Positions 9,658-32,907 of a stretch of 64,000 bases of DNA are shown in pieces. Each line of letters starts with the position of its first letter. The first letter of the stretch is position 1. Below the pieces are notes generated by a model. The model saw only the letters and a program-made list of their open reading frames with translations. It was not told the DNA's origin and ran no database searches. The DNA comes from Tangfeifania diversioriginum (GTDB lineage: Bacteria > Bacteroidota > Bacteroidia > Bacteroidales > Prolixibacteraceae), in NCBI GenBank assembly GCA_945873105.1, contig CAMCBW010000019.1, positions 1-64,000 of the forward strand. Reading direction: 5' to 3'. The translations under genes were made by a program, and so were the position numbers.

Positions 9658-11271
9658 TTATTTTCTTTTCAGGACAATCAGCCGGTCTTCCTCAAAGTTG
9701 TGTTCAAACTCCAGTATCACTCCCTGTTTGATGGAGGCTTCCGAATAACTGTTCCGGATCGGGTCAAACCATTGGGCAGTATAGGTGAAGTGGTTTGGAT
9801 TAGCCATTTTTACATCCGCCTTGTGGGGGATATAAGCGACTATCCAGCCATCATCGGGTGATTTGGCCACAGAAATCCACTGATTGTAAGTAGTCTTCCC
9901 GGGTTGATTCAGGAGTATTTCATTGGCGGGTCTCAGCTCCCACCATGCCAATTTGGCAAAGAAACCGGCAAGGTACCCCATCTGCAGGCTCCCTGGAAAG
10001 TCAATGCTCTTGCGCCAGGTGGAGGTTCCAGGGGCATCGCGGTGGTTCAGTATCATTTCACCTTCCCGCAGCCAGGGCCAGATGCCGTTGGCGCCATAGG
10101 TTACCCCGGCAACTGGGGTGGCAAGGATGCTCCAGTAGGAGGCATTCCTGACATCTTTGGCTGTTATGGAGAAGTTGATCTCCTCGTAATTGGGTTCCAT
10201 GTTGATGTAGGGCATCGGTTTCAACTTGCGCCACATCCTGGCCATTGGTCCCTGGTTGATCCAGTTCACCACCTTTTCGCCATTGCTGTGCGAGGATTGG
10301 TAACCTGCCTGGTCGTACCACTCCTCCTGGCTGTACAACTCTCCCACCCAGGAACTTCCGTGCGGATGAAGCGTAACAGGGGCATGATCGATGTCGTTGA
10401 AGACCCGGCGGCCAATCTCCCGCCATTTTACCTCCTGGTCGTCATAGTATTTGCCGTCCCCGCCCAGTGTCCAAACCACCTGATTTCCCTGGTAACGTGC
10501 GACAATGTATTTGGCCAGTAGCACCGCTTCCTCGAGCGGAAGGGTATATCCCGGACTCAACTCTCTTCCCTGACCGGAAGGCAACGCCCATAAAATTACC
10601 GGGGAGACAACAAGACCCTTGGCATTGGCCTCCTCAATTCGTTGATCCATCCTTTTAAAAAATTCGGGATGGATTCGAATGTAGCCACTCCCTTCGATGG
10701 CGGTCAAACCTTCGGCATTCTTGTCCCCACCCCGCCATTCGGTGGTGACCAGCTGAATCACATTGTAATTGTTCTTCTTGCGTTGGTTCAGGTAGAGCTC
10801 CCACTCCGCATCGGTCGATTTCAGTGCCCCATTCCATGCCGTACAGGCCAGCCAAAAGAAGGGGGTGCCATCGTGGTGCGTAAGGTAATAATCACCGGGA
10901 CGGTGCCGGATGGCTCCACGCCGGAAAATGGCATTAGCCGATTGGTTGGCCACACAATCGAATTGGCCCGTTTTCGCATGTAATCCAGCATTGCTTTGGT
11001 CTGCACACTCGGACTTCCAATTCCAACTGCCGGTCTCGTCGGGAAGAAACCGGACTTTCCATTTTGTACCACCATCCCAGAAACCCCGTACCACCAGCAC
11101 GCGACCGGAAGGAGCAGTCAGTTTGACCTTAAAATCCTTTACCTCATAAAGCGGATTGTTGTACAATTTTGCACTCTCGAACCCGATTTCATGTCTGGTC
11201 CAGATGGCGGTTTGGGCGTAACCCTTGACCATTAACATAATGAAAAAAACTGGAAGTAAACTCTTTAACAT
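9658..11271 (-). CDS. Exported glycoside hydrolase with DUF5060, DUF4038 (GH140-like) and collagen-binding-like C-terminal domains
   Basis: A 537-residue protein from the ATG at 11271, which begins with a signal peptide ending at GYAQ; the longer frame from 11397 is unlikely. An N-terminal beta-sandwich of the DUF5060 type (about residues 20-115, with VRGFWDGGTKWKVRF) precedes a TIM-barrel DUF4038 domain (HRPGDYYLTHHDGTPFFWLACTAWN gives its start in part: GTPFFWLACTAW). The C-terminal 85 residues resemble the putative collagen-binding domain seen in this family. Characterised relatives include GH140 apiosidases; the substrate here is unknown. It is the last gene of the large minus-strand PUL. 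Confidence 0.82.
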   Translation of the reverse strand: MLKSLLPVFFIMLMVKGYAQTAIWTRHEIGFESAKLYNNPLYEVKDFKVKLTAPSGRVLVVRGFWDGGTKWKVRFLPDETGSWNWKSECADQSNAGLHAKTGQFDCVANQSANAIFRRGAIRHRPGDYYLTHHDGTPFFWLACTAWNGALKSTDAEWELYLNQRKKNNYNVIQLVTTEWRGGDKNAEGLTAIEGSGYIRIHPEFFKRMDQRIEEANAKGLVVSPVILWALPSGQGRELSPGYTLPLEEAVLLAKYIVARYQGNQVVWTLGGDGKYYDDQEVKWREIGRRVFNDIDHAPVTLHPHGSSWVGELYSQEEWYDQAGYQSSHSNGEKVVNWINQGPMARMWRKLKPMPYINMEPNYEEINFSITAKDVRNASYWSILATPVAGVTYGANGIWPWLREGEMILNHRDAPGTSTWRKSIDFPGSLQMGYLAGFFAKLAWWELRPANEILLNQPGKTTYNQWISVAKSPDDGWIVAYIPHKADVKMANPNHFTYTAQWFDPIRNSYSEASIKQGVILEFEHNFEEDRLIVLKRK

Positions 11272-11435
11272 TTCGGTGTATATTTTGATTGTAAAATATT
11301 CCTTTTCGTTTGGGGATATAAAGCTACTAAAAGTAAAGGAATTGGAATGGGGTATTCGAGAGATTAACCCAACCTTATCGTCCAAGCAGCGCAACATGCA
11401 GCCAATCCAGGGACATTCCAGGTCTCTCCAGTTTA

Positions 11436-12551
11436 TTAAAATTTTTGACCTTCATCAGGTCCAGGGTTGGAATAGTCAGGATCAATGGCTCGAATCAGGA
11501 GTTCGTTTTCTATCATTTTAACATCAAGCGGCACCATAGTAACTCCTTGTTCATTAATTGTTTGGGCATTCTGCGAAAGATCTCTGGATTGAATTCCCTC
11601 TTTGGAAAGTGGGGGAATATTGCCATTGAAGAAAGCAGTACACCACCATTTTCCCAAATTGTCCTGAAAAGGTGTTCCATGACCCAAAAAGCGACCAACA
11701 AATTTACGTTCACCATAGGGACCCGTAATCTTGTCGGCAACCGCATAATAAAGATTGTAACTACCCTTGCGCATTTTTCCTGTCGACCAGCCGGTGCCGA
11801 AGAGTACGTATTTCCCGTGGATTTTGCGGATAAGACATCCTTCATGCCCCATCTTGCTCATTTCACCTGCCGGACCAATATCGACAGCTTTTCCTGCAAA
11901 ATCTGAGAGATCTGATTTGAGTGGTGCAATCGAGGTAGCGCCCCAGATCATCCACCAGGTACCGTCATCATCCAGAAAGAGAGAGGGATCATGTCGTTTG
12001 GCTATTTTGACTCCCATTGGGTTGGCCCATGGAGCTTTTGGTTCCGTACTTGATGCAACGGATAAGTTAGCACCAGCCACCGGTGATGGGCTGGTATGTA
12101 TCAGCGCAAGCTTGTTGTTGATGAAATGAAATTCAGGAGCCCACAAGCGCCACTGGGATTCAGGTACATTTTTGAATTTCTCTGGATTTGCACCATACCA
12201 GATGGCGTCTTTGAGGGTATAGGGAACTCCCAAAGATACCCAGTTAACAAAGTCTTTGGTTTTCCAGGCACGGAGTTCATAGCCAACCAGACTTGAATCA
12301 CCCAATCCGGAGTTGTATTTGGTTTTTGGTGATTCCTTAAGCGAAGAGGGCTGTGTGGTGCCCGTCAGGTAAAAGAACTCATCCGGACCTTTGATGATAT
12401 AGGGATCCCGGATCCAGCCATCCTTGACATGAATGGCCCGATCGTGGGCAGTCATTGCCTTCCTAATTTCAGAAGGTTTTGAGACAGAACTGGTAACAAT
12501 TACCTCGTCAGGAAGAGAGACAAAGGCTAGTAAAAGTAAAATAAATATCAT
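11436..12551 (-). CDS. Exported GH43-like five-bladed beta-propeller glycosidase
   Basis: A 371-residue protein with a short hydrophobic leader, followed by a five-bladed propeller pattern. Candidate catalytic residues fit the clan F arrangement: Asp49 in WIRDPY, Asp188 in RHDPSLFLD and Glu237 in GHEGCL. Repeated WW/W-rich blade motifs such as DDDGTWWMIWG and NLGKWWCTAF support the propeller. Family 43 and 117 enzymes remove arabinose, xylose, galactose or anhydro-galactose residues; I cannot assign the sugar. It lies between a sulfatase and the DUF4038 enzyme, all in the same direction, so it is most likely part of the PUL operon. Confidence 0.75.
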   Translation of the reverse strand: MIFILLLLAFVSLPDEVIVTSSVSKPSEIRKAMTAHDRAIHVKDGWIRDPYIIKGPDEFFYLTGTTQPSSLKESPKTKYNSGLGDSSLVGYELRAWKTKDFVNWVSLGVPYTLKDAIWYGANPEKFKNVPESQWRLWAPEFHFINNKLALIHTSPSPVAGANLSVASSTEPKAPWANPMGVKIAKRHDPSLFLDDDGTWWMIWGATSIAPLKSDLSDFAGKAVDIGPAGEMSKMGHEGCLIRKIHGKYVLFGTGWSTGKMRKGSYNLYYAVADKITGPYGERKFVGRFLGHGTPFQDNLGKWWCTAFFNGNIPPLSKEGIQSRDLSQNAQTINEQGVTMVPLDVKMIENELLIRAIDPDYSNPGPDEGQKF

Positions 12552-12659
12552 ATGTATTTAGTTTTTAGTATGTTGTATTTAGTCAAATGACTATACCAAC
12601 ACCATTCCTGTTTCGGTGCAAATCAAATAAGCTTTTATATTTGTTCTCATCAGGGAAAA

Positions 12660-14243
12660 TCAATTGTAACTATTCTTTGTCTTTTGTCCCTTTGGAACAA
12701 CCTTGCATCGTACCGACCATTGATGCCAACTTGTTGCCAGGTCAACAGCAATTTCTGGATATTGAGAAGCGAGGTCGTTTAATTCAGTACGGTCTGTTTC
12801 CAAATTGAATAACTGCCATTTATCTGAACCAACCGTAGAGATGGCTTTCCATTTCCCTTTTCGTACTGCACAGTTGTTGGAATGTTCCCAAAACTGATAT
12901 TCGGGTTCCTTCTGTTTCCCTTTCAGAAATGTTGGAACCAGACTAATCCCTTCGAGTGGCAAAATTGCATTTCCACCATATATTTTGGGATAATTTGCCC
13001 CGGCAACTTCCAAAACAGTTGGCATCACATTCAAAATATGTCCTTGCGTGGCTGTAATTTTTCCACGTTGTGATTTTATGGCTGCCGGCCAGTGGGCAAT
13101 AAATGGGGTAGCAATGCCGCCCTCTTCGGCATTCACCTTGAAAGCACGAAAAGGAGTATTTGACAGATTGGCCCATCCAATTCCGTAGGAAACTGATCCT
13201 GCTTTATCCGGATCGTTAATGTCGGACTGCTCTCCGCCGCCAAATTCTTTGTAGGGCTCTGCACAAGCACCATTGTCGCTTAGAAACATAATCAAGGTAT
13301 TGTCGAGTTGATTGATTTGTTTCAGATAATCAACGAGTTTACCTATGTTATAATCGACACAATATACTTGTGCTGCATAGACTGCCATCCGGTAATCGCT
13401 TAGCTTCTTTTGCTCCTCAGAAACTTCATTCCAGTCCCTTACGCGTGAGTCGCGTGGTGAAAGTTTCGTATTTTTATCGAACAAACCCATCTTAAGTTGG
13501 CGTTCGAAGCGTTGCTTTCGCAGTTCGTCCCAGCCTTCCATGTATTTTCCTGTAAACTTCTGAATATCTTCCTGTTTTGCGTGAAGGGGCCAGTGTGGGG
13601 CATTGTAAGCCAAATAAAGGAAGAAGGGTTTATCATCTTTTTTTTCCTTAATAAACGCTATGGACTTATCGGTAAACGCATCGGTGCTGTAAAATCCTTT
13701 TGGCGCACGAATTGTGTCAGTTTCGTCAATGAGGCAACGCACTCCTTTGGGGTCGAAATAGCTGAACGCACCCTGGTAAGAACCGTAATAGTGTTCAAAC
13801 CCCCGTTGTAGCGGACGTTTGGAAAGCGCATCTGAACCCAAATGCCATTTCCCGGTCATGTAGGTATGGTAGCCGTTTTGTTTCAATACTTCGGCAATGG
13901 TCACGCACTTTTTATTCAGATAGCCACGGTAGCCCTCCACTCCGAAATCGAAATTATTCCCGGCTTCGGTGGTCATCTGTCCAATGCCGGTTTGATGCTG
14001 GTAAAGTCCGGTCAGCAACGAAGCACGTGTTGGGCAACAGCGGGCAGTATTGTGAAAATTACTGAACCGCAGGCCGTTCTGAGCCAGTTTGTCGATATTT
14101 GGCGTGGGTATCTCGCTGCCGTAACATCCAATATCAGAGAAGCCCATGTCGTCGGCCATTATCAGGACGATGTTTGGTTTTTGAGCCTGTGCAACATGGC
14201 AACAAAAAGCAAGGCCCAGGGTTATGACTGTCGGAATATTCAT
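12660..14243 (-). CDS. Exported S1 sulfatase (arylsulfatase type, CCPTR)
   Basis: A 527-residue formylglycine sulfatase from the ATG at 14243; the signal peptide ends at AQAQ near residue 21. Metal-binding aspartates are D31-D32 in MADDMG. The modification site is C69 in C69-C-P-T-R73, read by the formylglycine-generating machinery as CxPxR. LSDNGA supplies the later metal Asp/Asn pair. It is very similar in architecture to the sulfatase at 22.8-24.4 kb, including the doubled cysteine, which suggests a paralogue. It probably removes sulfate esters in the periplasm. It lies 26 codons or so from the next sulfatase, in the same direction. Confidence 0.92.
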   Translation of the reverse strand: MNIPTVITLGLAFCCHVAQAQKPNIVLIMADDMGFSDIGCYGSEIPTPNIDKLAQNGLRFSNFHNTARCCPTRASLLTGLYQHQTGIGQMTTEAGNNFDFGVEGYRGYLNKKCVTIAEVLKQNGYHTYMTGKWHLGSDALSKRPLQRGFEHYYGSYQGAFSYFDPKGVRCLIDETDTIRAPKGFYSTDAFTDKSIAFIKEKKDDKPFFLYLAYNAPHWPLHAKQEDIQKFTGKYMEGWDELRKQRFERQLKMGLFDKNTKLSPRDSRVRDWNEVSEEQKKLSDYRMAVYAAQVYCVDYNIGKLVDYLKQINQLDNTLIMFLSDNGACAEPYKEFGGGEQSDINDPDKAGSVSYGIGWANLSNTPFRAFKVNAEEGGIATPFIAHWPAAIKSQRGKITATQGHILNVMPTVLEVAGANYPKIYGGNAILPLEGISLVPTFLKGKQKEPEYQFWEHSNNCAVRKGKWKAISTVGSDKWQLFNLETDRTELNDLASQYPEIAVDLATSWHQWSVRCKVVPKGQKTKNSYN

Positions 14244-14334: not shown

Positions 14335-15741
14335 CTATTTTTCCCCTCCAACCGTTCCATCAGCATTTTTAAACTGATGGTCAAGCGCTTTCATTTCGGT
14401 AGCTTGTCCTTCATCTCCGCAGGAGGCCATCCATGCTTTCAAGGCACGATCCAGCCGCTCAACCACCGGTTTGTATGCAGCATTTCCGGCAAGGTCATGC
14501 ATACAATATTTATCCTTCTCCAGATCGTAAAGCTCAATAGCCGGACGGTGCTGATACTTATTGGTAATCCACCTTGCCAGACAATCCGTCAGCGCTTTTT
14601 GTTGCCATTTTTTGAAAAGCGGGGCCAGTACTTCAGTATTTTGAAAGGTGGCTTCAGGGGAAAGATTCAGCACGTAGCGATATTTCCTGTCAGCCACTGA
14701 GCGAATCCCGTAATATTCACTTCCACTGTAGATTCCGCGTGTCGTTTGTATCGAGAAGGTGTATTGCTTGTGAGCCTTTTCTTTACCGGTCAGCACCGGA
14801 ACAAAGCTTTTCCCATCGAGTGGAGTCAGAGGTTTTGTACCTGCAATTTCGAGGAAAGTCGGCAAAATATCCACATATTCAACAATTGCCTCCGATGTTG
14901 AACCAGGTTGGATCACTCCCGGCCAACGAACCAGACAGGCAGAGTGGACTCCTGCCTCGTAGCAGGTCCATTTGGCAAAAGGCAGGCTGTTGCCCTGTTC
15001 ACTCAGATAAACTACTACCGTTTTGTCATTGAGTTTGTGATCTTCCAACTTACCGAGTAAAGTTCCAAATTCCTTGTCCATGTAGTTGATTTCGGCCAGG
15101 TATTTGCAGAAGTTGGTCCTGGTTTCGGGAACGTCAACATAAAAAGGAGGCAATGCTATTCTTTCCGGATTAAACAAACTGGGATTCCCTTTATTCCATG
15201 GGGTGTGTGGCTGATTCGACGTTACAAACAGACAAAAAGGCTGATGGTTTGAAGTGCATACATTCATAAACGAATCGACTTCAGCAAAATTTATATCATT
15301 GCTTTTTGTTAGTGGCGAATATAGATCCCAAGGGAAGACCGATTCAGGTTGTACATGCGATTTGCCAATCAAAGCAACCTGATACCCTGCCGGTTTTAGG
15401 TGATGAATGATGCTCAGTGTACGATCTTTGGCAAATGTATGGTTTGGATAAGCTCCTGTTTTTACAGGCCACAAACCAGTATAAAGGTTGTGACGGGTAG
15501 GAGAACACATCGGAGCTGCCTGGTATGCCTTGGTAAAACGAATGCCCTGGGTAGCAAAATTGTCGATGTTGGGTGTTTTGGAATCAACACTGCCGTAACA
15601 TGCCAAGTCGTAATAAGAACAATCATCGGCCATGAATAGTACCAGATTGGGCTTTCCCTTTTGCGCCTCAGCACGTAACGGGTTAATAAACTGACCAACT
15701 ACAAGAAATGCCAGTGGCCATATTTGAAAAGGGTTCATCAT
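14335..15741 (-). CDS. Exported S1 sulfatase (heparan N-sulfatase-like, CSPTR)
   Basis: A 468-residue sulfatase with a signal peptide to about residue 26. D39-D40 (FMADDCS) bind the metal and C79 in C79-S-P-T-R is the formylglycine site. The block after it (HNLYTGLWPVKTGAYPNH) and the short C-terminal domain resemble the N-sulphoglucosamine sulphohydrolase branch, but this branch also contains O-sulfatases, so no substrate is claimed. Two ATG codons are adjacent at the start; the first is used. The gene starts 10 bp after the GH2 gene ends, so they are very likely in one transcript. Confidence 0.92.
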   Translation of the reverse strand: MMNPFQIWPLAFLVVGQFINPLRAEAQKGKPNLVLFMADDCSYYDLACYGSVDSKTPNIDNFATQGIRFTKAYQAAPMCSPTRHNLYTGLWPVKTGAYPNHTFAKDRTLSIIHHLKPAGYQVALIGKSHVQPESVFPWDLYSPLTKSNDINFAEVDSFMNVCTSNHQPFCLFVTSNQPHTPWNKGNPSLFNPERIALPPFYVDVPETRTNFCKYLAEINYMDKEFGTLLGKLEDHKLNDKTVVVYLSEQGNSLPFAKWTCYEAGVHSACLVRWPGVIQPGSTSEAIVEYVDILPTFLEIAGTKPLTPLDGKSFVPVLTGKEKAHKQYTFSIQTTRGIYSGSEYYGIRSVADRKYRYVLNLSPEATFQNTEVLAPLFKKWQQKALTDCLARWITNKYQHRPAIELYDLEKDKYCMHDLAGNAAYKPVVERLDRALKAWMASCGDEGQATEMKALDHQFKNADGTVGGEK

Positions 15742-15751
15742 TTCTTAAGAT

Positions 15752-18037
15752 TTAATAGGAAAATAGCGCTACATCAATCAATTCAATTTTAGATGGCTTT
15801 TCAGCATTGATAGTTATCGTATTGAGGCCACTTCTTAACATCTTTAACTCATCCTCATAAACAGGATAAAAATTTATCCCCGGTTCACCAAAACGTGCAT
15901 CCAATGTGGTTTTTCTGAAAACATCGCCATTTATTTTTATTTCACAATCGGTAAATCCTTTGAGGGCCACTGCTAATCTTTGAGGGATGTCCTTACATAT
16001 AAATTGTTTTGAAAAAGTAAAAGGTGCTTTTAGGTTGGTTTTGACTTGAATGAATTCATTTTGATCTCCTGACGGGAGTTTAACCTTTTGACCTTTGGTG
16101 TCAATCCAATCGGAACCAAAAGCAACGATGGGCTTCAGTTCTGGCTTGGTATAAAGGGTTTCATTAATCTTCCTCATCACTTCCGGTGCTATTTTAGAGA
16201 TTTTCCGGTCGTAGGTCAAATAGCCGTTAAGTTCGTGCTCAACGTCAGTTATTTGCGTATATACCAACGCATTGCATCCGCTCCCTGCATTAAGACAGCG
16301 TATGGATTCAATGAATTTGCCATAAGCGTTTTCAAAAACCTCAGGAGATCCATAGGTATGTCTTACTGACTCTTCCTTGAAATTGTATTTGTCGACCGGA
16401 TTATAATTATTATGTTCATTCTGTTTTGGTTTGTTTGTATCGGAATACCAGGTATGCCCAGGTATGGCGAGATTGATACCGGCGGCTTCACCAATAACCA
16501 ATGCCCGTTTCCCCTTTAGTTTATAGTCTGCCGCATTGTTCCTTGGATAAAAGGTGTAGTCATGCACATCCAAAATATCACCTGCGGGAAAATCAGTCCA
16601 ACCACTTGCGCAGTTGATCAATCTTGTCGAATCGTACTTCTCCATCCAATTCGTGTAATACACCGTATTATGCTGGCTCCAGCCTTCGTTGAAAACAATC
16701 CACATAACGATTGAAGGGTGGTTATGCAACCAATCAACCATCGACTTAAATTCGGTTTGCCATTGTTTTGCAGCAGCATCGTCCACTGTTTGACCGTATT
16801 TAGGCATGCAAACCATATCCTGCCAGACCAATAGTCCCAGTTTATCTGCCCAGTAATACCATCGGTCGGGATGGGTCTTAATATGTACCCTCACCATGTT
16901 GCAACCAATCTTTTTCAGGTATTCAAGGTCGTATTTGATAGCATCATCAGAGGGAGGAGTCAACACTCCATCCGGCCAGTATCCCTGGTCCAACGGACCA
17001 TACTGAAATATCTCTTCATTGTTAAGGAAAATTCGCTGAAATCCATCATCCGCTTTCTTTATTTCAATTTTTCGCATACCGAAATAACTGGCTACCTCAT
17101 CAAGAATTCTTTCACCATCCTTTAACCTAACTTTCAAGTCGTACAATACAGGACTATCTGGTGACCAGGCTTTAAATCCCTTAATGGGTATTTCAATCAC
17201 AGAACCTTTAAAACCAGAATTCTCATAGATCATTTTTCCACCTTCCCAGACCTGAGCCTCAATAGTACCTTTTGAATCACTGGTAGATACATTTATTCTA
17301 ACGATTGATTTGTCGTATTCAGGAATAATTTTCAAGTTTTTGATGGAGTTCTCAGGAACTGGTTCCATCCAAACGGTTTTCCATATTCCACCTGTTGGTT
17401 GATAACGAAAACCCTTTCTGTTTTCAGGCATTATTTGTTTGCCAATTGCCTGACTCTGCCCTTCAGTGGCATCCCAGACACAAACATGCAGCTGGTTGTT
17501 ACCACTTTTCAGATAGGGAGTTATATCAAAAGAAAACGGATCATATCCTCCGCGATGCTGACCAACTCTCTGTCCGTTGATATACACGCTGGATTCCCAA
17601 TCACTGGATTCGAAGTGCAAAAGCACATTTTTCCCTTTCCAGTCAGAAGGAACTTTAAACGAACGCTGGTACCATATTACTTCGTCCGGGCGTAATACCT
17701 GACCAACACCAGAAAGCGGAGCATCCACGGCAAAGGGAACCAGTATTTTTCCTATCCATTCATTGGGTATTTCACCGGATGTCCAGCTACTTTCACTGGT
17801 TAAACCCTGTATAGATTGGAATCCTATTGGTTGCAAAGCATAATCCCATAAACCATTCAGGTTCTGCCATTCCTCTCTCTCCATTTGGGGACGTGGATAT
17901 TCAGGTAACGGATTTTCGGGATCGACCCGGGCAGCAAAATCGGTCACCATAGGGCTTTGGGCTATTTTATAAGTAAACGACTTTGAACATCCCGAAAGGA
18001 GCAGAATGATCAGAAAAAAGAAAATGGGTAATCGCAT
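15752..18037 (-). CDS. GH2 family glycoside hydrolase, lipoprotein
   Basis: A 761-residue GH2 enzyme with a lipoprotein signal (LLLSGC, lipidation at Cys17). Domain order is a sugar-binding jelly roll (about 50-225, with ESSDWESSVYINGQRVG), an immunoglobulin-like sandwich (about 230-325), a TIM barrel (about 330-620) and a C-terminal beta domain. Glu451 in VFNEGW is the expected acid/base and Glu517 in VIGEAAG the expected nucleophile. Family activities include beta-galactosidase, beta-glucuronidase and beta-mannosidase, and the sequence alone does not decide. The lipobox suggests attachment to the outer membrane or periplasm. It sits between sulfatases and is in the same direction. Confidence 0.92.
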   Translation of the reverse strand: MRLPIFFFLIILLLSGCSKSFTYKIAQSPMVTDFAARVDPENPLPEYPRPQMEREEWQNLNGLWDYALQPIGFQSIQGLTSESSWTSGEIPNEWIGKILVPFAVDAPLSGVGQVLRPDEVIWYQRSFKVPSDWKGKNVLLHFESSDWESSVYINGQRVGQHRGGYDPFSFDITPYLKSGNNQLHVCVWDATEGQSQAIGKQIMPENRKGFRYQPTGGIWKTVWMEPVPENSIKNLKIIPEYDKSIVRINVSTSDSKGTIEAQVWEGGKMIYENSGFKGSVIEIPIKGFKAWSPDSPVLYDLKVRLKDGERILDEVASYFGMRKIEIKKADDGFQRIFLNNEEIFQYGPLDQGYWPDGVLTPPSDDAIKYDLEYLKKIGCNMVRVHIKTHPDRWYYWADKLGLLVWQDMVCMPKYGQTVDDAAAKQWQTEFKSMVDWLHNHPSIVMWIVFNEGWSQHNTVYYTNWMEKYDSTRLINCASGWTDFPAGDILDVHDYTFYPRNNAADYKLKGKRALVIGEAAGINLAIPGHTWYSDTNKPKQNEHNNYNPVDKYNFKEESVRHTYGSPEVFENAYGKFIESIRCLNAGSGCNALVYTQITDVEHELNGYLTYDRKISKIAPEVMRKINETLYTKPELKPIVAFGSDWIDTKGQKVKLPSGDQNEFIQVKTNLKAPFTFSKQFICKDIPQRLAVALKGFTDCEIKINGDVFRKTTLDARFGEPGINFYPVYEDELKMLRSGLNTITINAEKPSKIELIDVALFSY

Positions 18038-22669: not shown

Positions 22670-22812
22670 ACTATAATAATTTGTTTTTAAAGGAAGTATG
22701 GAACTCCATGTTGATGAAATTATTATCATTCTCCTAAACGTCGTGAAGCAACATGTTCGTTTCATAAAATCCATGTCAAATTATGATTTTCTGTTAGTTA
22801 TAATTCAATTTT

Positions 22813-24495: not shown

Positions 24496-25878
24496 TTAGT
24501 TTGAATGCTCGGTAGTCCTGGGCAAGGAATTTCGCCATTTAAGTAATTTTGTTTTCAGTTTTTCAGCCATATTCGGGTTTTCTGAAACTAAATTTGTCAT
24601 TTCATTGCAATCGGTTTTCAAATTGTAGAGTTCAGCATCGGTACCATCAAAATTGATCAGAAATTTCCAATCCCCTTCGCGAATGGCAAGATTAGGACTG
24701 CGGTCACGCTCTTTCGGAAATACGAAAGAGCTATTGTTGCGACCATATTCCCAATACAAAGTTCTTGTTTCATTGGTAGGTCTGCCCATCAATACCTGAC
24801 TTTTGTCTTTGCCATCGAAAGCGAATCCTCCCGGCAACTTTGCACCAGCCATTTTACAGAGGCTAGGCAATAAATCGTTGGCTGAAATAACAGATTGCTG
24901 GTCGGTTTTTTCTGCCGGAACATGCCCCGGCCATCGGACAATAAACGGCATCCGGGTACCACCTTCATACAAGGATAGTTTGGATCCTCTGAAATTCCCG
25001 GAGCGCGATCCTTTGAAACTTGGCAATGGGCCATTATCACTGGTGAAAATAACTAGCGTGTTTTCATCAATTCCCAATTTTTTCAGACCCTCGAACAATC
25101 TTCCAATTTGACGGTCGTATTCATCCAAAACGGCCCTGAACTTGCGTTCTTCCTCCGGCCCATTGGGGTAGGCGCCAAATCTCTCCTGACTGGGAACCCA
25201 GGGTGTGTGCACATCGTCAGGCCAAAGGTTGATAAAACAAGGCTGATCTTTGTGCCGTTTCAGAAAGTTGAGTGTTCTGTCAACGAAATAGGCAGTGCGG
25301 TCCCAACGCTTGATGCTGTCTTTTGCAGACCATATCCAGTTTGTAGCGGTCAGGAGAGGATCCGGATCGGGGCTTTCCCAGGTGCTTGAATGTTCGTCAA
25401 ATCCATAAGCTCCGAAACCCGGCGCTTCAGTGACATCACGCCCGCCACCCATATGCCATTTGCCAAAATGGCCGGTGGCATAGCCAGCAGTTTTAAGAAT
25501 TCTGGCCATAGACGGAGCCGAAGCACTCAGAAAATCGGCTTGTTCACATTTCCTGTTTCCATCTCTTGTTTGCAAATAACTGGTAATATTCCATCTGGCC
25601 GGAGCCATTCCGGTCAGAATTCCGGTCCGGGATGGAGAACAAATTGGTGAAGCGCTATAATATTTGGTGAACCGAATTCCCTCTTTGGCCATTCGATCCA
25701 GGTTAGGCGTTGGCGCAAAGTTGCCACCATAACAGCCTACATCGCCAAAGCCCATGTCATCGGTGAGGATGATTAAAATATTGGGCTTATTGGTTTTTAA
25801 TTTCTCTTTTGCCTGAGCAAAAAATGTTGGTCCCAAAACTAATAAGACAACAAATATTATAAATCTTCTGATTGCCAT
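24496..25878 (-). CDS. Exported S1 sulfatase (CSPSR)
   Basis: A 460-residue sulfatase with a signal peptide to about residue 23. Metal residues D40-D41 lie in LTDDMG; the formylglycine site is C80 in C80-S-P-S-R84. GKWHMGGGRD and FTSDNGPLPSF supply other active-site residues. It is the first gene after SusD in the direction of transcription, but a strong hairpin at 25961-26014 lies between them, so the enzyme genes may be expressed at a lower level than SusCD or from their own promoter. The substrate is not assignable. Confidence 0.92.
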   Translation of the reverse strand: MAIRRFIIFVVLLVLGPTFFAQAKEKLKTNKPNILIILTDDMGFGDVGCYGGNFAPTPNLDRMAKEGIRFTKYYSASPICSPSRTGILTGMAPARWNITSYLQTRDGNRKCEQADFLSASAPSMARILKTAGYATGHFGKWHMGGGRDVTEAPGFGAYGFDEHSSTWESPDPDPLLTATNWIWSAKDSIKRWDRTAYFVDRTLNFLKRHKDQPCFINLWPDDVHTPWVPSQERFGAYPNGPEEERKFRAVLDEYDRQIGRLFEGLKKLGIDENTLVIFTSDNGPLPSFKGSRSGNFRGSKLSLYEGGTRMPFIVRWPGHVPAEKTDQQSVISANDLLPSLCKMAGAKLPGGFAFDGKDKSQVLMGRPTNETRTLYWEYGRNNSSFVFPKERDRSPNLAIREGDWKFLINFDGTDAELYNLKTDCNEMTNLVSENPNMAEKLKTKLLKWRNSLPRTTEHSN

Positions 25879-26041: not shown

Positions 26042-27511
26042 TTAATATCCCGGGTTCTGTTTACAAAGCGGATTGGCATTGATTTCCGGTTGGGGAATGG
26101 GGAAGAGCTTGCGGTAATCCTGGGCATTAGCGATACCCCTGGATTTGGCATAAGAGATAAACTTATCCTGACGCAGTAAATCCTGTCTCCTCATTTTTTC
26201 ACCATAGAGTTCCCATCCTCTTTCCTGGAGAATTCGGTCACGTAAGCTCTCTTTGGTGAAAGAGGATAGTACCAATGGCGTTTTTAGCCCTGCCCTGTCT
26301 CTTACCTGTTGAATGAGATTCAAGGCCTCCTGGGTTGGACCGCCTATTTCGTTCAAGGCTTCAGCCCTGGCAAGTAAAATATCGGAGTACCGAATAACCG
26401 GGATATCGTTGCCATGGCTATTTGCATTGGCGTTGATATCAGGAACAAATTTGAATGCCCGGGTATTGTTTTGATTCAGCAGGGATACTTTCTGCCCGGA
26501 ACTGTTGATGTATTCGGTTATGATCAAATTTCTGCGTGTATCTGCGGGATCAAAAGAGTTATAGAACAAATCCATAAGACGGTCCATCCTTGCCCAATTT
26601 CGCATATTGGAGGTAAAGACGATCTTACCGTCAACTGTTTTGGCAAATGCAGCGGGGAAAGCGCCATTCATAAACTCGTTGCCAGGGCCCAATGGGCTGC
26701 AAGGATATACCCATACAAACTCTTTGTTTTTCTCTTCGTTATCCACTGTGAACAGCGTCGTATAGTCCGGCCACAAAGCGTATTTATTCAAATCCATCAG
26801 CTGTTTCGCAGCATCGGCACTTTTCTGCCACTGCCGGTTATTCAGGTAGAATTTCGTCAAATAGCCCAACGCAGCACCCTTCGTAGCTCTTCCATAACCG
26901 TAACCACTCACCTCTCCATTGTTAGGCAGCACTTTCGCTACATCAGCGAACTCCTTTTCAAAATAGGTCTGCATCTCTGCATCGGTTGCCCGTGCCATGG
27001 ACAGATCGCCAACGGTGGTTAAACGCAAGGGGACAGGTCCAAAAAAGGTATAGAGAATATAGTAGGCTGATGCCCTGACAAAACGGGCCTCCGCCTTTGA
27101 CCTCTCTTTGATTGTAGCCTCCACAGGTGAATTGTCAATATTCTCCAAAACAAGGTTGCAATTTCTGACAGATGCATAGCAATTGTTCCAAAGGTTAGTA
27201 AATTGTGTTGGGTAAGATGCATCCCAGGTAAAGTTTAACATGACTACTGCCTGAAGGTTCACTGCACCCCCCGTTTCCCAGAACTGGTCGCAGGTCCACT
27301 CTTCCTGGAACCAAATGTTTCCACCAAAATTGTCTGTAATCTGTGCATCGCGGTAAGCGTTGAATAGCACCCTTTCAACACCATTGGCTGACTGCATTAA
27401 AGCAGCCGGATCAAGCTGTGAATAAACATCTTCCTGCAGTTGGTTTTCACAGCCGGAGAACAACAAGAGCGTTCCCAGTAATGCGGATGAAATATAATTC
27501 TGAATTTTCAT
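26042..27511 (-). CDS. SusD/RagB-family outer-membrane glycan-binding lipoprotein
   Basis: A 489-residue SusD-like protein with a lipoprotein signal (LLFSGC, lipidation at Cys21). It holds the typical tetratricopeptide-type helices, the segment ARFVRASAYYILYTFFGPVPL (in part FVRASAYYILYTFFG), PVIRYSDILLARAEALNE and the closing FPIPQPEINANP. The protein caps SusC at the cell surface and captures oligosaccharides. It starts 18 bp after the SusC stop, the usual arrangement. A long hairpin follows its stop. Confidence 0.95.
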   Translation of the reverse strand: MKIQNYISSALLGTLLLFSGCENQLQEDVYSQLDPAALMQSANGVERVLFNAYRDAQITDNFGGNIWFQEEWTCDQFWETGGAVNLQAVVMLNFTWDASYPTQFTNLWNNCYASVRNCNLVLENIDNSPVEATIKERSKAEARFVRASAYYILYTFFGPVPLRLTTVGDLSMARATDAEMQTYFEKEFADVAKVLPNNGEVSGYGYGRATKGAALGYLTKFYLNNRQWQKSADAAKQLMDLNKYALWPDYTTLFTVDNEEKNKEFVWVYPCSPLGPGNEFMNGAFPAAFAKTVDGKIVFTSNMRNWARMDRLMDLFYNSFDPADTRRNLIITEYINSSGQKVSLLNQNNTRAFKFVPDINANANSHGNDIPVIRYSDILLARAEALNEIGGPTQEALNLIQQVRDRAGLKTPLVLSSFTKESLRDRILQERGWELYGEKMRRQDLLRQDKFISYAKSRGIANAQDYRKLFPIPQPEINANPLCKQNPGY

Positions 27512-27529
27512 AATGCTGATTTGTTTAAA

Positions 27530-30500
27530 TTAAAAACCTAGTTCCACACCAAAAATAAATGTTCGGGCAACAGGATATGAGTTGAAGTCAATCTTCAAAG
27601 TGCTGCTACCATTGGAGTTCGTTGTTGGATCCTGACCTGTGTAATTGGTCCAGGTATGAAGATTTTGTCCACTAACATAAAAAGCAACATTTTCAAATAT
27701 CTTCTTGTTTTTGAGTGGAAGTCTGTAAGTTAATTGCATGGATTGCAGGCGGATATAAGAGGCATCCTCAACTGTTAAGTCGCTTACTGCCTTGTTGCCC
27801 TGGCCTGCAGGATTGACAAATGAGGGAAATTCAGTAGAAGGATTAGTGGAAGTCCAGCGGTTAAGGTAAGGTTCTGCTATCCTGTTTCTCCGGTGACTTA
27901 CAGGGAAGTAGGTTTCAACCTTCGAATTGTTCAGCATGCTCACTCCTGAAAGTGCATCAATAAAGAAGTTAAGCTCAAAATTCCTGAAAGACAGATTATT
28001 GGTTAAACCTAATGTTAATGAAGGAATTGACTTCCCAAGAATTACACGATCAGAGGTATTAACCACCTTATCCCCGTTCTGATCCACATATTTTATATCA
28101 CCAGGTTTAACAGGGTCTTTGGTTCCAGAGGCGGAAATATCTGCTTGGGTCTGCCAGATACCATTGGTCTGGTATCCATAAAAAGAGTTGAGCGTTTCAC
28201 CAACCCTGATGATGGCAATTTGTGTGGTCGTCTGGCCTGCTCCAGTGTGTATAATTTCAGAAATAGTTCCAATATCGGTTACCTCGTTTTTCAAAGTGCT
28301 CAGGTTGAAACTGGTATTCCATTGGAATTTCCCCTCCAGATTCCTGGAATCAATGGTCAGTTCAAAGCCGTTATTTTTCAAACTGCCAATATTCTGCATA
28401 ACAGAACTATAACCTGTCGATGCAGGAATCGGCAATGCAAACAACATATCATAGGTATTTTTCTGGTAATAGTCTACCGATGCCATAATCCGGTTGTTGA
28501 AGAATCCCATGTCGAATCCAATATCAAACTGCTGTGTTGTTTCCCATTTCAAATCAGGATTGGCAATTCGCAACGGAACTAGACCAACATATTGCTGTCC
28601 ACCGATTATTACATTTGATCCCCTTCCAAAGGTAGTGATGGAAAGGAAATTGGAGATATTCTGGTTTCCAGTCTGGCCAATACTTGACCTGAATTTCAAG
28701 GAGCTAATTGCTTTAAAATTTTTAATAAACTGATAATCTGTCATCTTCCACGCGAAAGCTGCAGATGGGAAGTAGGCAAATTTATTGTTCTCGCCAAATT
28801 TCGAAGAACCATCCGCCCTGATGGTGGCAGTAAATAGGAACTTATTGTTCAGATTATAATTTGCCCTGCCAATGTAAGAGAGCAATTTATTGTTGCTTTT
28901 AGAGCTGTTCATGGTGTAGTAGGCTGAATTGGCTAGTCCCATGTTGTTGGTCATTGTTTCATCCACAGGGAAACCTTTTCCCGTACCCGAGAAGTCACTG
29001 TTGGTAAACTTTTGGTAGGTAATACCACCCATTACGGTAAAATTGCTGTTGTTTTGCAATTCCTTATTGTAGGTCGTCGTGAATTCTCCCAGATAATTAT
29101 TTTTTGACCCTGTTAAAATAGTACCTACTCCACCATTGGCCAATCCATCCTTTGTAATTCTTAAAACATAATCATCCCGGCGACTGTTTCTCATGTCAAA
29201 TCCAATATTGACCTTGGCGGTCCACCCTTTCAAAATAGTATATTCTCCAAAAATGGTTCCAAGCGTTCGGTAGTTGGCTGCCTGGCTTCTTTCTCCATTA
29301 GCCAGTGCAACAGGGTTGTCGATGTTCAGAAGCGGAGAAATCTGATAGGTTCCATCCGCATTAAAGACACTTAAGGTTGGGTCGAAACCCCTGGCTGCGT
29401 ATAGTGGATCACCCTGCTCGTTGGTATCGAACCCCCCCTGAAGCAGGTCATCGTAAGTATAGGCGGTTGAAAAATTGATGCCAAAAAGCATTTTCTCGGC
29501 CCTGTGCTCCATATTAAAACGTGTATCATACCGCTGAAAACCTGAATTTATCATGATTCCCTCCTGGTTGAAATAATTGAGGGAGGCAAAATATTTGGTG
29601 GTGTTATTCCCTCCGTTGAAGGACAAACTGTGGCTCTGAACCTTTGCATCCCGAATCAACTCATCCTGCCAGACTGTACCGGCTCCATTGTTCTGAATGT
29701 CTCCCACTAGCTCCGTTTGTGACACGTTGGAACCGGGAGTAGCCAAAATTTCATTTAATACCCGTTTGTACTCAGAGGCATTGAGCACACCGATCATGTT
29801 AATTGGTTTCTGCATACCACCATAACCGCTATAATTGACTTTCATTGCGCCTGAGGCACCCTTTTTGGTCGTTACAAGAATTACCCCATTGGCTCCCCTG
29901 GCGCCATAAATGGCAGTAGCTGAAGCATCTTTTAATATTTCTATTGATTGAATATCAGCAGTATTGATGTTGCTTATGGGGCTTCGCGGAACCCTTGCAT
30001 CGGTTATATTTTCTCCAACGCCTGAAATAACCTGACCAATTTCAATAGGTAATCCATCCACCACATAAAGCGGCTCAGAACCAGCATTAACAGAACCCGC
30101 TCCACGGATTTGAATGGTAATGCCACCACCGGGTTCTGCACTTCCCTGAGTGATCTGAACCCCGGCAGCTTTTCCTTGCAAAAGTCCCGACATGGAGGTA
30201 ACTACCCCCTTGTTCATGTCATCTTTCTTCAAGGATGCAACCGCACCGGTGACGTCACTTTTCTTGACTGTCCCATATCCGATAGCTACAACCTCTTCGA
30301 TTCCAACCGTCTCTTCAGCTAATACAATATTGATATTGGTTTTACCATTGGTTGCAATCTCCTGCATCTGCATTCCCACAAAGGAAAACTGTAAAGTAGC
30401 ATTTTCAGAGATATTTTGAATGGAATAACTTCCGTTGGCATCCGTCACTACACCGATGGTGGTACCTTTGACTACAATTGAAACACCCGGAAGTGTCTGT

Positions 30501-30925
30501 CCCTTTTCATCATTTACCTTACCGGAAACTGATTTTTTCTGTTGTAATGCGACTGCATCTGACTCAGCTTTTCGGATCACAATTTGCCGGTCGTAGACTT
30601 CATAAGTAACTTTTTCATCCTTTAGCACCTTGGCAAGTATCTGGTCGATATTGGCTCCTGTTAGCTGAACATCAATCCTTTTACTCAAATTGATGTCCTC
30701 TTTTTTGTAAAGGAAAACGAAATCGCTGTGCTCTTCCACATATCCAATCGCTTCATGGATGGTGGCATTGCTTAACTTAACATCCATCAGTTTCGTCTGG
30801 GAATAGCTTTTGGCTACAACCGAAAAGCATAATCCAAATACAAGGAGTAGTGTTAATCTCATGATTCGCTGTAGTTTTTTAAGACTTTCCCATTCGGAAA
30901 AATCCGGTTGCCATTTTTTTTTCAT
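27530..30925 (-). CDS. SusC/RagA-family TonB-dependent transporter with N-terminal STN signalling domain
   Basis: A protein of 1131 residues from the ATG at 30925 (MKKKWQPDF); an ATG at 30940 would add five residues. Order: signal segment (MRLTLLLVFGLCFSVVAK), STN domain (about 45-105, for contact with the FecR anti-sigma factor), CarboxypepD_reg-like beta-sandwich (about 125-205), TonB-dependent plug with PLYVVDGLPI (about 215-330), and a long beta-barrel ending in the aromatic FGVELGF. It imports oligosaccharides across the outer membrane. The STN domain fits the neighbouring sigma/anti-sigma pair: substrate binding would release the sigma factor and induce the PUL. Confidence 0.95.
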   Translation of the reverse strand: MKKKWQPDFSEWESLKKLQRIMRLTLLLVFGLCFSVVAKSYSQTKLMDVKLSNATIHEAIGYVEEHSDFVFLYKKEDINLSKRIDVQLTGANIDQILAKVLKDEKVTYEVYDRQIVIRKAESDAVALQQKKSVSGKVNDEKGQTLPGVSIVVKGTTIGVVTDANGSYSIQNISENATLQFSFVGMQMQEIATNGKTNINIVLAEETVGIEEVVAIGYGTVKKSDVTGAVASLKKDDMNKGVVTSMSGLLQGKAAGVQITQGSAEPGGGITIQIRGAGSVNAGSEPLYVVDGLPIEIGQVISGVGENITDARVPRSPISNINTADIQSIEILKDASATAIYGARGANGVILVTTKKGASGAMKVNYSGYGGMQKPINMIGVLNASEYKRVLNEILATPGSNVSQTELVGDIQNNGAGTVWQDELIRDAKVQSHSLSFNGGNNTTKYFASLNYFNQEGIMINSGFQRYDTRFNMEHRAEKMLFGINFSTAYTYDDLLQGGFDTNEQGDPLYAARGFDPTLSVFNADGTYQISPLLNIDNPVALANGERSQAANYRTLGTIFGEYTILKGWTAKVNIGFDMRNSRRDDYVLRITKDGLANGGVGTILTGSKNNYLGEFTTTYNKELQNNSNFTVMGGITYQKFTNSDFSGTGKGFPVDETMTNNMGLANSAYYTMNSSKSNNKLLSYIGRANYNLNNKFLFTATIRADGSSKFGENNKFAYFPSAAFAWKMTDYQFIKNFKAISSLKFRSSIGQTGNQNISNFLSITTFGRGSNVIIGGQQYVGLVPLRIANPDLKWETTQQFDIGFDMGFFNNRIMASVDYYQKNTYDMLFALPIPASTGYSSVMQNIGSLKNNGFELTIDSRNLEGKFQWNTSFNLSTLKNEVTDIGTISEIIHTGAGQTTTQIAIIRVGETLNSFYGYQTNGIWQTQADISASGTKDPVKPGDIKYVDQNGDKVVNTSDRVILGKSIPSLTLGLTNNLSFRNFELNFFIDALSGVSMLNNSKVETYFPVSHRRNRIAEPYLNRWTSTNPSTEFPSFVNPAGQGNKAVSDLTVEDASYIRLQSMQLTYRLPLKNKKIFENVAFYVSGQNLHTWTNYTGQDPTTNSNGSSTLKIDFNSYPVARTFIFGVELGF

Positions 30926-30982
30926 AAATTTGCTGTGCATTAAATGAATACTGAAAAATTGATTTTAATTGGTGTTTATTGT

Positions 30983-31014
30983 AAACCGGTCAATGTTCCC
31001 GCATTTTCCGGTTT
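30983..31014 (-). repeat. Inverted repeat between FecR and SusC genes
   Basis: Arms AAACCGG and CCGGTTT, 18 nt apart, lie in the short gap between the anti-sigma stop and the SusC start, touching the stop codon. This may be a partial terminator or mRNA-processing hairpin that lets SusC be expressed at a different level from the regulators. Confidence 0.4.
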
Positions 31015-32200
31015 ATTTTATTTGATAGTTGTTCTCGTCTATTTTGGTAAATCTCACGGAAGACACTTTGGTGATGTATTCAAATACCTGCTCTACCTCC
31101 TTGTTCAAATCAAGTTTCCCGGTAATCCGTTGAGATCCTACCATCGGATCAGCATATTGAATGTGAATATTGTAATAGCGCTCAACACTTTTCAGAATCC
31201 GGCACATCTCCAGATCATCGAAACAGAGTAGCCCTTGTGTCCATATGGTACACGCCCCAGCATCGACCAATGAAACTTTGGAATCCTGGGTTGTCTTGTC
31301 AAAAGAGGCCATTTGGTTCGGAGTAAGTACGAGGTCCTGCTCAAAGAGGCCGGAACCATTCCTGCGGATTGAAACACTTCCCTCTTTCAGAACAGTCTGA
31401 ATTACATTGTCTTCAGGGTAGGCGGAGATGTTGAATTTTGTTCCCAGGACGGTAACTTCCAAAGAAGAGGTCTTCACGATGAATGGATTTTTCTCATCCC
31501 TTGAAACTTCGAAAAAAGCCTCCCCAAATAATAGAACCTCTCTCGCACTTCCTGAAAATCTGGAAGGATAAATAAGCCGGCTACCTGCGTTCAGCCAGAC
31601 CACCGAGCCATCGCTAAGTGTGAGCCTGGAGCGGTTCCCGAAAGGGATAATCAACTGATTGGTCGTAATCTGATCTGCATTTTTCCGGGAGTGGATGACT
31701 GAGTCATTGTTGAGCACAACTTCTTCCGGATTCGTATAGTCCAATGATGAGGTACTCTTTTTCAGCGGAACACTCGTCCCCTCGGGTAAAATCAATACCG
31801 GCCCCTGAAGTTGTTGGGGAATACGGGTATCAGCCACCATCCAGGCTGCACTTTTCTTATCCATTCGCAGGTAAACGAGCACACTGCCAATCGAAAAGAA
31901 CAATATTGCAATCGCTGCATACCTGGCTAAACCAAGGAGGAATCTTCGTTGTTCTCTCTTCTTGTCGATGGATTCCAGGCCCTGCATGATCCGATTGGCC
32001 AGCTGCTTCTTTTCCAGTGAACTCATTGATTCCACCGAATAGCCCAGGGCGCTGAACCGCTGCTTCAGGAGAAGAATTTGGGGTGCATCAGCCGGGTTTA
32101 ACTCCATATAAGTTTCCCACCATGAATTGATCTCAGGACCAGGATGGTAGATCCATTTGAAAAAGAGGGGATTCTCAACAAGTTTTTCGTAGTTATCCAT
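31013..32200 (-). CDS. FecR-family anti-sigma factor
   Basis: A 395-residue single-pass membrane protein. The first 86 residues are cytoplasmic and should hold the ECF sigma factor. One membrane segment lies at about residues 87-111. The periplasmic part has the FecR domain (NQLIIPFGNRSRLTLSDGSVVWLNAGSRL in part: LTLSDGSVVWLNAGS; then FEVSRDEKNPFIVKTSSLEVTVLGT in part: FIVKTSSLEVTVLGTKFN) and a C-terminal domain that contacts the STN domain of SusC. It lies between the sigma gene and SusC, all in one direction, so it is the regulator of this PUL. Confidence 0.95.
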   Translation of the reverse strand: MDNYEKLVENPLFFKWIYHPGPEINSWWETYMELNPADAPQILLLKQRFSALGYSVESMSSLEKKQLANRIMQGLESIDKKREQRRFLLGLARYAAIAILFFSIGSVLVYLRMDKKSAAWMVADTRIPQQLQGPVLILPEGTSVPLKKSTSSLDYTNPEEVVLNNDSVIHSRKNADQITTNQLIIPFGNRSRLTLSDGSVVWLNAGSRLIYPSRFSGSAREVLLFGEAFFEVSRDEKNPFIVKTSSLEVTVLGTKFNISAYPEDNVIQTVLKEGSVSIRRNGSGLFEQDLVLTPNQMASFDKTTQDSKVSLVDAGACTIWTQGLLCFDDLEMCRILKSVERYYNIHIQYADPMVGSQRITGKLDLNKEVEQVFEYITKVSSVRFTKIDENNYQIK

Positions 32201-32268
32201 AAATGAGAATGAATTTCCACTAAGAGCAGATAACTCCGAAAAAGGGACACCCGAAATGGGGTAAAATT

Positions 32269-32907
32269 TTATGTTTTACAACATAGAAGAAAAAGTTCAA
32301 GGATTTTAGCGCCTACGGAGTCGTGCAAGTGTTGAATAATCCGGTAGACCTGTTTTTTTACCGTGTCTGGTTTTAGATTGAGTAATTCACCTATTTCGCT
32401 GTATGTCAAACCACTATCAAATTTTAAAAACAGCAACTCTCTCTTTTGTTGGTCAAGCCCCTTAAGTGCCTTTTGCAGAGAATCCAGCTGCCGGCTCTTA
32501 GAATCATCCTGAAAATCTTCCGTTTCGGCATAGAAGGCGAGTTCAAATGAGTTAAAGTCGGGCTGAATGCTCTGCAACCGGTTCTCCTTCTGTAGCTTTT
32601 TGATGATGGCATGCTTCAGGGATTTGTAGAGGTAGAACTCCAGTAATTCAGGATTCTTGATCGTTGGATGGTACTTGTACAAATCGATGAAGAGATCCTG
32701 GATAGCATCCTTGACCAACTCCTTGTCAGTGGTTATCTTGTTGCCATACACAAACAGCCGGTCCGTAAATTCATTGTAAATTTCTTCAAATGAGCTACGG
32801 TCGCCCGACCTGAATTTGGACCAAACAAATTGCCAGTAATCTCTATTTCTTGGTTCTCTGGTCAATGTTCCTTTTTTCAATAAGATTAGTGACCACAAAA
32901 CTAACAA
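32269..32907 (-). CDS. ECF RNA polymerase sigma factor
   Basis: An ECF sigma factor of about 200 residues with region 2 (FTDRLFVYGNKIT, VKDAIQDLFIDLYKY) and region 4 (LTYSEIGELLNLKPDTVKKQV). The start is uncertain. The longest frame opens at a TTG (32907), while a TTG at 32865 is preceded by AAAAAAGGA five bases upstream and removes a hydrophobic, atypical N-terminus. No ATG precedes region 2. It starts the regulator-SusCD unit and should recognise promoters of this PUL, with activity held in check by the FecR protein. Confidence 0.9.
   Translation of the reverse strand: MLVLWSLILLKKGTLTREPRNRDYWQFVWSKFRSGDRSSFEEIYNEFTDRLFVYGNKITTDKELVKDAIQDLFIDLYKYHPTIKNPELLEFYLYKSLKHAIIKKLQKENRLQSIQPDFNSFELAFYAETEDFQDDSKSRQLDSLQKALKGLDQQKRELLFLKFDSGLTYSEIGELLNLKPDTVKKQVYRIIQHLHDSVGAKILELFLLCCKT

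Follow-up and report, generated by a model that had tools for sequence, protein, structure and literature searches.

A recurring sulfatase-rich polysaccharide utilization locus in Tangfeifania diversioriginum and its possible sulfated furanose-bearing target

The first 64,000 nucleotides of the 92-kb contig C19 (CAMCBW010000019.1) of a Tangfeifania diversioriginum genome (GCA_945873105.1; Bacteroidota, Prolixibacteraceae), referred to below as the window, contain a polysaccharide utilization locus (PUL) of 14 genes that runs from position 32907 down to 9658. Judged by its gene content and that of related loci, it is a recurring PUL type with a core of SusC, SusD and sulfatases, and with slightly less than even confidence we take it to be a sulfatase-type PUL for sulfated furanose-bearing glycans, in which alpha-L-arabinofuranose (Araf) and/or beta-D-galactofuranose (Galf) would be carried on a hexose chain. 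PULs are a well-known kind of locus; what is particular here is the combination of enzymes, which recurs in relatives. Sulfated glycans represent carbon that turns over slowly, and for many sulfatase-rich PULs the substrate is not known.

The locus and its relatives

All 14 genes lie on the minus strand, with intergenic gaps of -4 to 164 bp. An extracytoplasmic function (ECF) sigma factor with a TTG start (32269..32907; Pfam Sigma70_r4_2 3.4e-10) and a FecR-type anti-sigma factor (31013..32200; FecR 2.5e-17) are followed by a SusC-like TonB-dependent transporter (27530..30940, likely start 30862; CarbopepD_reg_2 and Plug), whose STN domain scored 26.3 bits, slightly below the Pfam cut-off of 28.4, and by the adjoining SusD-like lipoprotein (26042..27511; SusD_RagB 6.7e-32). 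Sulfatase A, sulfatase B, a GH5-like enzyme (GH, glycoside hydrolase), a GtaA/DUF4965 protein, sulfatase C, a GH2, sulfatase D, sulfatase E, a GH43 and, as the last gene, a GH140-like protein with DUF5060 and Apiosidase (DUF4038) domains complete the transcription order. With SusC next to SusD, a regulator, and exported carbohydrate-active enzymes that are all read in one direction, the locus has the make-up of a SusCD-type PUL, and the one-strand PUL of the original prediction, extending from the ECF sigma factor to the DUF4038 enzyme, was thus recovered together with its five sulfatases. Export of its enzymes, as predicted, is likely: a simple script applied to the chosen start codons found a hydrophobic, signal-peptide-like N-terminus on all ten of them, as well as a lipobox-like motif on the GH2, the GH5-like protein and SusD. 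Several of the listed open reading frames (ORFs) start too early, the likely starts being 22669 (not 22774) for the GH5-like enzyme, 14243 for sulfatase E, 24423 for sulfatase B, 21510 for GtaA and 11271 for the GH140-like protein. In NCBIfam none of the ten enzymes had a family over the cut-off.

A SusD match with E <= 1e-120 was found in 13 of the 140 genomes of the family, its own included (12 of the 139 others), and in two of 395 genomes drawn from the class, again with its own. The scan for SusD-related loci, which covered close relatives only and yielded 18 loci from 35 candidate stretches, placed them in Gaoshiqia, Maribellus, Draconibacterium and Sunxiuqinia, all Prolixibacteraceae, and in a metagenome-assembled genome (MAG) labelled Mariniphaga; additional SusD relatives with 46-48% identity occur in Echinicola and Parapedobacter, and others with 71% in MAGs that bear the labels Tannerella and Paludibacter. 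Gene content was compared, at a threshold of 45% identity over 60% of the length, in 14 loci, the window included, that have a SusD of at least 54% identity and sequence behind it, with G111 counted across its contigs C50 and C91. Sulfatase D was present in all 14 of these loci and sulfatase E in 13, followed by the GH5-like enzyme in nine (that of Gaoshiqia sits in a neighbouring cluster upstream), the GH43 and sulfatase B in seven each, sulfatase C in five, GtaA in four and sulfatase A in three. The GH140-like, ECF and FecR genes were found in the window only, although G003 has no sequence upstream of SusD and some of the contigs stop short. The 19 comparison loci that lack this SusD were chosen for a GH5-like gene (18) or for the closest GH2 (G121) and are not a random sample; none of them has sulfatase A, C or D or the GH43, while sulfatase E is present in one (G121), sulfatase B in five and GtaA in three. 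It is because of this recurrence of sulfatases D and E and the GH43 behind the same SusD, and the lack of A, C, D and the GH43 in the comparison loci, that we regard the locus as a recurring PUL type. In addition, the GH43 (E <= 1e-60) occurs in 12 of the 140 genomes, nine of them shared with the SusD (Fisher p 3e-9, a value that ignores kinship), and of its 13 matches seven lie within SusD loci and that of G111 on the second contig of its locus.

Five loci on short or truncated contigs were omitted from this comparison, namely G001, G011 and G065 (contigs of at most 6.2 kb) and L109 and L117 (contigs ending at SusD), while L119 and L120 (SusD 33-35%) were left unused and a second SusD of G111 (49%, contig C64) was uncounted. 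Absences in G003, L110 and G029, whose contigs end early, are weak, and G153 has a piece of sulfatase C and a 140-residue piece of the GH43, both below the length threshold. The GtaA genes of G127 and G147 precede the regulators and stand outside the operon. Outside the 14, four Echinicola and Parapedobacter loci (SusD 46-48%, 21 kb each) were examined: one carries sulfatases C and E and the GH43, two carry sulfatase A and one carries none of these genes.

Within the family, uncharacterised PULs with orthologous SusCD were found in Gaoshiqia sediminis, Sunxiuqinia dokdonensis, Maribellus sediminis, Draconibacterium mangrovi, D. sediminis, D. aestuarii and the Mariniphaga MAG. All seven share SusC (54-72%), SusD (55-77%) and sulfatases D and E with the window locus, four have the GH43 (plus a fragment in Mariniphaga) and five the GH5-like enzyme; however, they have other regulators, their GH2, where present, is 35-42% identical, the fetched sequence holds no GH140-like gene, and the Mariniphaga locus carries an aldose epimerase, a GH9 and a GH106 in addition. 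Much of the cassette is also held by G003, a MAG of the window's own genus named for the freshwater lake Loclat, so that both sediment isolates and a freshwater-lake MAG congeneric with the window have this PUL type. Loclat, in Switzerland, is one of the lakes in a freshwater metagenome set (PMC8121793). In the SusD tree the window falls inside a 100/100 clade of ten with no firm closest partner, and the lake MAG groups with the nzgw134 and Mariniphaga MAGs, a placement that, for one gene tree, fits transfer.

Sulfatases, glycosidases and mosaic make-up

All five sulfatases combine a Sulfatase domain over the Pfam cut-off with the C-x-P-S/T-R formylglycine motif of type I (S1) enzymes, and for three of them the nearest PDB sequence points to a subfamily. 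Sulfatase B (22813..24423, CCPTR; Sulfatase 1e-58) and sulfatase E (12660..14243, CCPTR; 4.1e-70), which are 41% identical, clearly have S1_4 as their nearest subfamily, both having 7all as the best match (1.4e-105 and 8.1e-120, respectively). 7ALL is BT4683, an S1_4 enzyme acting on 3-sulfated galactose (3S-Gal), and another S1_4 enzyme is given for 6S-Gal (PMC10154620). Sulfatase C (18086..19462, CAPSR; 2.4e-37) is S1_8-like, with 9bb9, an S1_8A enzyme of the lambda-carrageenan pathway, as the best match (1.9e-42, residues 20-443 of 458); the S1_8 enzymes of this pathway are described as 2-O-sulfohydrolases (PMC12549532). The assignment is ambiguous for sulfatase A (24496..25878, CSPSR; 4.2e-53), whose best match, 9fo1 (1.8e-64), is labelled k-carrageenan sulfatase S1_16 and has no clear lead over other matches, and for sulfatase D (14335..15741, CSPTR; 1.4e-37), which is 35% identical to C and has PDB matches divided between S1_16 and S1_8. 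In the genome as a whole (99 contigs, 5.36 Mb) the sulfatase domain was matched 87 times, some matches being fragments of a single gene, so that sulfatase-rich loci are common in it, and the proteins behind its 11 FGE-domain matches are a possible source of sulfatase maturation.

The GH2 lipoprotein (15752..18037; Glyco_hydro_2_N 2.3e-21) has four close relatives among solved structures, 7sf2, 9j6n, 9j6m and 7xyr (5e-143 to 4e-87), and the E-value gap between these and the next match (3.5e-33) exceeds 50 orders of magnitude. 9J6M is a GH2_18 and 7XYR a GH2_19 enzyme (PMC12243196), and by this comparison the window GH2 belongs with the furanosidase branch, group III (GH2_18/GH2_19; alpha-L-arabinofuranosidase/beta-D-galactofuranosidase), and not with the plain beta-galactosidases. 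Seven genes resembling it, including its closest relative (67%, full length), were observed within about 22 kb in G121:C1:7235000-7294999 (L160-L162), a locus that also carries GH5-like and sulfatase B-like and E-like genes.

The GH5-like enzyme (21614..22669) had no Pfam or PDB sequence match at 1e-3 and no GH5 (Cellulase) profile at E <= 0.1, and its score against the GH2 TIM-barrel profile was 18.6 bits, below the cut-off of 21. Its AlphaFold2 model (pLDDT, the model's confidence score, 78) matched folds of clan GH-A (Z 20-23, identity 10-20%), predominantly mannanases and mannosidases of GH5 but also GH164 enzymes and beta-galactosidases, and E189 (NEP) and E271 (CTEYMAR), likely the catalytic pair, are invariant across 17 aligned sequences. 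As far as the model goes, the enzyme is thus a member of clan GH-A with a (beta/alpha)8 fold and two probable catalytic glutamates, and given the many GH5 enzymes among its fold matches it may be a distant GH5. Around the GH5-like genes of 15 loci, 19 of the 105 ORFs (200 to 950 aa, at most 6 kb away) are GH43, seven sulfatases, three GH127 and three GtaA, among the 25 of 76 families listed, and in six of the nine loci that carry both, no more than 147 bp separate sulfatase B from the GH5-like gene.

The sequence ahead of the GH5-like gene (22663-22766) was considered as a part of the enzyme and rejected. It is a copy, on the minus strand, of a dispersed repeat of about 104 bp (TATGAAACGA to TATAGTATGAAAA) with a second window copy at 5365-5439 (plus strand). 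This genome has 26 matches to the repeat, many being partial, and six of the eight genomes of the genus have matches; in G003 two copies stand in tandem with a 7-bp overlap. Since in 15 of the 24 full-length copies examined (loci returned by the search, with no shuffled control) a frame of at least 100 codons begins at the repeat's 3'-end ATG, the following gene seems to receive its start codon from the repeat, which opens the GH5-like gene here and, as a partial copy, a SOUL gene at 5433. Possible explanations are a shared leader and a small mobile element whose insertion sites are start codons.

The GH43 (11436..12551; Glyco_hydro_43 5.4e-21) is a distant member of its family, and in four related loci, those of Maribellus sediminis, Draconibacterium mangrovi, D. 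sediminis and G149, a relative of it (55-58%) follows a GH5-like domain within a single fused frame of 748-750 aa. The GtaA/DUF4965-DUF5127-DUF4964 protein (19459..21510; GtaA_6_Hairpin 6.5e-145) gave a predicted structure (alignment of 6; pLDDT 57) too poor for a fold search, and the GH140-like protein (9658..11271) matched Apiosidase (3.6e-76) and DUF5060 (5.3e-19). The glycosidase types originally proposed were recovered, with some qualification: GH2, GH43 and GH140-like were found by Pfam, the GH2 is of the furanosidase branch, the DUF4965 protein is a member of the Pfam 'glutaminase A' family and the GH5-like enzyme stayed under every Pfam cut-off.

The ECF and FecR genes have no match of at least 45% in the 12 SusD-sister loci with upstream sequence. 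The PULs of G033 and G044, however, resemble the window in ECF (50-51%), FecR (48-50%), GtaA (47-48%), the GH5-like enzyme (70-71%), sulfatase B (67%) and GH2 (40-41%), while they have a different SusCD and, from the window's five sulfatases, only B. Read with Pfam, the G044 PUL has a GH127, two other GH43, a GH2 and a GtaA beside its GH5-like enzyme and S1_4-like sulfatase, and the G033 PUL consists of genes of nearly the same sizes in nearly the same order. Because the regulators match these PULs with a different SusCD and not the sister loci, the window locus looks like a SusCD/sulfatase core joined to a module of regulators, sulfatase B, GH5-like enzyme and GtaA, and its enzymes therefore need not all share one substrate.

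Candidate target glycans

Araf or Galf residues are suggested as part of the target because the GH2 falls in the furanosidase branch, because the surroundings of the GH5-like genes are rich in GH43 and include a few GH127, because GH5-like enzyme and GH43 are fused in four related loci, and because the G044 PUL has a GH127 and two GH43. For a sulfated glycan of this kind, binding at SusC/SusD would be signalled through the STN domain to FecR, which would free the ECF sigma factor and switch the operon on, and SusCD would bring in the oligosaccharides. The sulfatases would remove the sulfate esters first, B and E perhaps at 3-O or 6-O of galactose, C perhaps at 2-O and A perhaps at 4-O, and the GH2, the GH43 and the GH5-like enzyme, with GtaA and the GH140-like protein as accessories, would then free the sugars. 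Since there is no endo-lyase at the locus, the glycan would be cut chiefly by exo-hydrolysis, the GH5-like enzyme being the sole candidate endo-enzyme.

Several observations weigh against a furanose-bearing target. The sulfatase subfamilies were assigned from the nearest PDB sequences only, not from SulfAtlas; the window GH2 shares no more than 35-42% identity with the GH2s present in nine of the 13 sister loci, and GH2s of its type are common (75 of the 140 family genomes); and the structures that match the GH5-like enzyme in fold are hexosidases, most of which act on mannan. No GH127 lies within the window locus, and in a PDB sequence search the window GH43 had no good match among solved structures. 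A relative of this GH43 (61%) occurs in a G021 locus with a GH106 and without a SusD orthologue, where no sulfatase was found among the ten proteins scanned, so that GH43s of this type would not depend on a sulfated substrate. The GH140-like gene is weak evidence on the target because no relative of it turned up in the sequence fetched for the 13 sister loci, some of whose contigs end early. Finally, the DUF2264 neighbour discussed below could mean uronates.

The mosaic make-up could also mean that the locus has no single target, with SusCD, sulfatases A, C, D and E and the GH43 serving one glycan and the recruited ECF/FecR, sulfatase B, GH5-like and GtaA genes another. We consider this unlikely: the genes of this second group do occur together in G033 and G044 beside a different SusCD, and the GH140-like gene and this form of GH2 are missing from the fetched sister loci, but sulfatase B and the GH5-like enzyme also co-occur in the SusD-sister loci G003, G111 and G153, which suggests a stable combination, and the gene spacing is that of a single operon.

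A sulfated galactopyranan (carrageenan-like, or another red-algal or animal galactan), on which the GH2 would act as a beta-galactosidase, seems less probable still. Characterised S1_4, S1_8 and S1_16 members do act on sulfated galactose (3-, 2- and 4-sulfates), and sulfatase A has the k-carrageenan sulfatase label of its best match in its favour. Yet the GH2 is of the furanosidase branch, a MAG whose name refers to a freshwater lake has much of the cassette, and no endo-carrageenase or agarase (GH16, GH82, GH150 etc.) is present, 13 of the 14 genes belonging to other families and the 14th having a clan GH-A fold. The lambda-carrageenan PUL of Pseudoalteromonas distincta U2A (PMC12549532) shares S1_8 sulfatases and a GH2 with the window locus; however, its GH110, GH150 and S1_15 enzymes are all missing here, and its GH2 is a beta-galactopyranosidase, unlike the branch of the window GH2.

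A narrower form of the furanose-bearing proposal, which we regard as speculative and improbable, is that this PUL type has moved between members of the Bacteroidota and serves a sulfated Araf-rich glycan of fresh water and marine sediment, such as a sulfated and arabinosylated green-algal wall or matrix glycoprotein, with a new GH family (the GH5-like enzyme) beside an S1_4-like sulfatase. Volvocine algae have sulfated arabinosylated matrix glycoproteins.

Very unlikely, in our view, is a sulfated target glycan with uronates, resembling ulvan or a glycosaminoglycan, whose terminal uronates would be dehydrated by the DUF2264 protein (33046..35100, minus strand; DUF2264 3.7e-65), encoded 138 bp upstream of the PUL on the same strand. 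This protein is by sequence similarity a GH154-type relative of uronate dehydratases, resembling BcGDH (best PDB matches 9o4u at 2e-15 and 9nwf at 1.4e-14, a glucuronate dehydratase), and two tested GH154 (DUF2264) members are glucuronate dehydratases (PMC12269599). On the other hand, no signal peptide was seen on it, the fetched sister-locus stretches hold no DUF2264 relative of 45%, and GH154 dehydratases often co-localise with GH88/GH105 (PMC12269599), neither of which is found on this contig (the genome has 11 PF07470 matches, all on other contigs). Among the 14 PUL genes Pfam detected no lyase, GH88 or GH105, as first claimed, and the combination of an ulvan lyase with GH88/GH105 that marks ulvan PULs is therefore lacking. 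The ulvan PUL of Formosa agariphila resembles the window locus in having GH2/GH43-type enzymes, and it has lyases. It also has several sulfatases, as here, but differs by a GH105/GH88 context and a dehydratase unrelated to GH154 (PMC8511951), whereas the window locus has neither lyase nor GH88/GH105. The contrast with ulvan loci originally drawn thus stands, qualified by the adjoining DUF2264 gene.

Similarly, no fucosidase or fucanase of a fucoidan-type family (GH29, GH95, GH107, GH141 etc.) is present among the 14 genes. A diatom sulfated mannan was rejected as the target, since the GH195 and GH92 that accompany two sulfatases in its pathway (PMC13063451) are both missing from the 14 PUL genes.

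The original prediction of a branched and highly sulfated glycan is supported in part, by the sulfatases and the several glycosidase types, and is qualified by the furanosidase branch of the GH2, the adjoining DUF2264 gene, the mosaic locus and the weak evidence from the GH140-like gene. That this glycan may be undescribed is compatible with our finding no characterised PUL of matching make-up among the top-ranked open-licence PMC papers listed, in which the organisms of the relatives were not searched one by one.

Neighbouring genes and implications

Directly upstream of the PUL and beyond its range, the DUF2264 gene is accompanied by a ThuA-domain gene (35245..36162; ThuA 8.4e-32), both on the minus strand (33046-36162). 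At the other end, one copy of a 132-bp inverted repeat pair (9504-9633 and 47896-48025, 80% identical) sits between a convergent phosphoenolpyruvate carboxylase gene and the PUL end. Positions 36237-53719, between this PUL and a second one, encode an AraC regulator, an esterase, a xylose-isomerase-like TIM barrel, three GFO/IDH/MocA oxidoreductases, an aldo-keto reductase, a zinc dehydrogenase and a major facilitator superfamily (MFS) transporter, perhaps for oxidative sugar catabolism. A second sulfatase cluster on the minus strand (55582-63273), separate from the PUL, comprises two sulfatases, an MFS transporter, a URO-D-type protein and a GH141-like beta-helix protein (61009-63273), and SusC/SusD-like matches lie by it on C19 just past the window end (64000).

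The recurrence of the cassette in cultured sediment isolates provides a direct route to finding its glycan. The GH5-like enzyme, which no Pfam or NCBIfam model recognises, may found a new family. Since a MAG from the same genus, named for a lake with fresh water, has much of the cassette too, sulfated glycans of this kind would not be confined to the sea.

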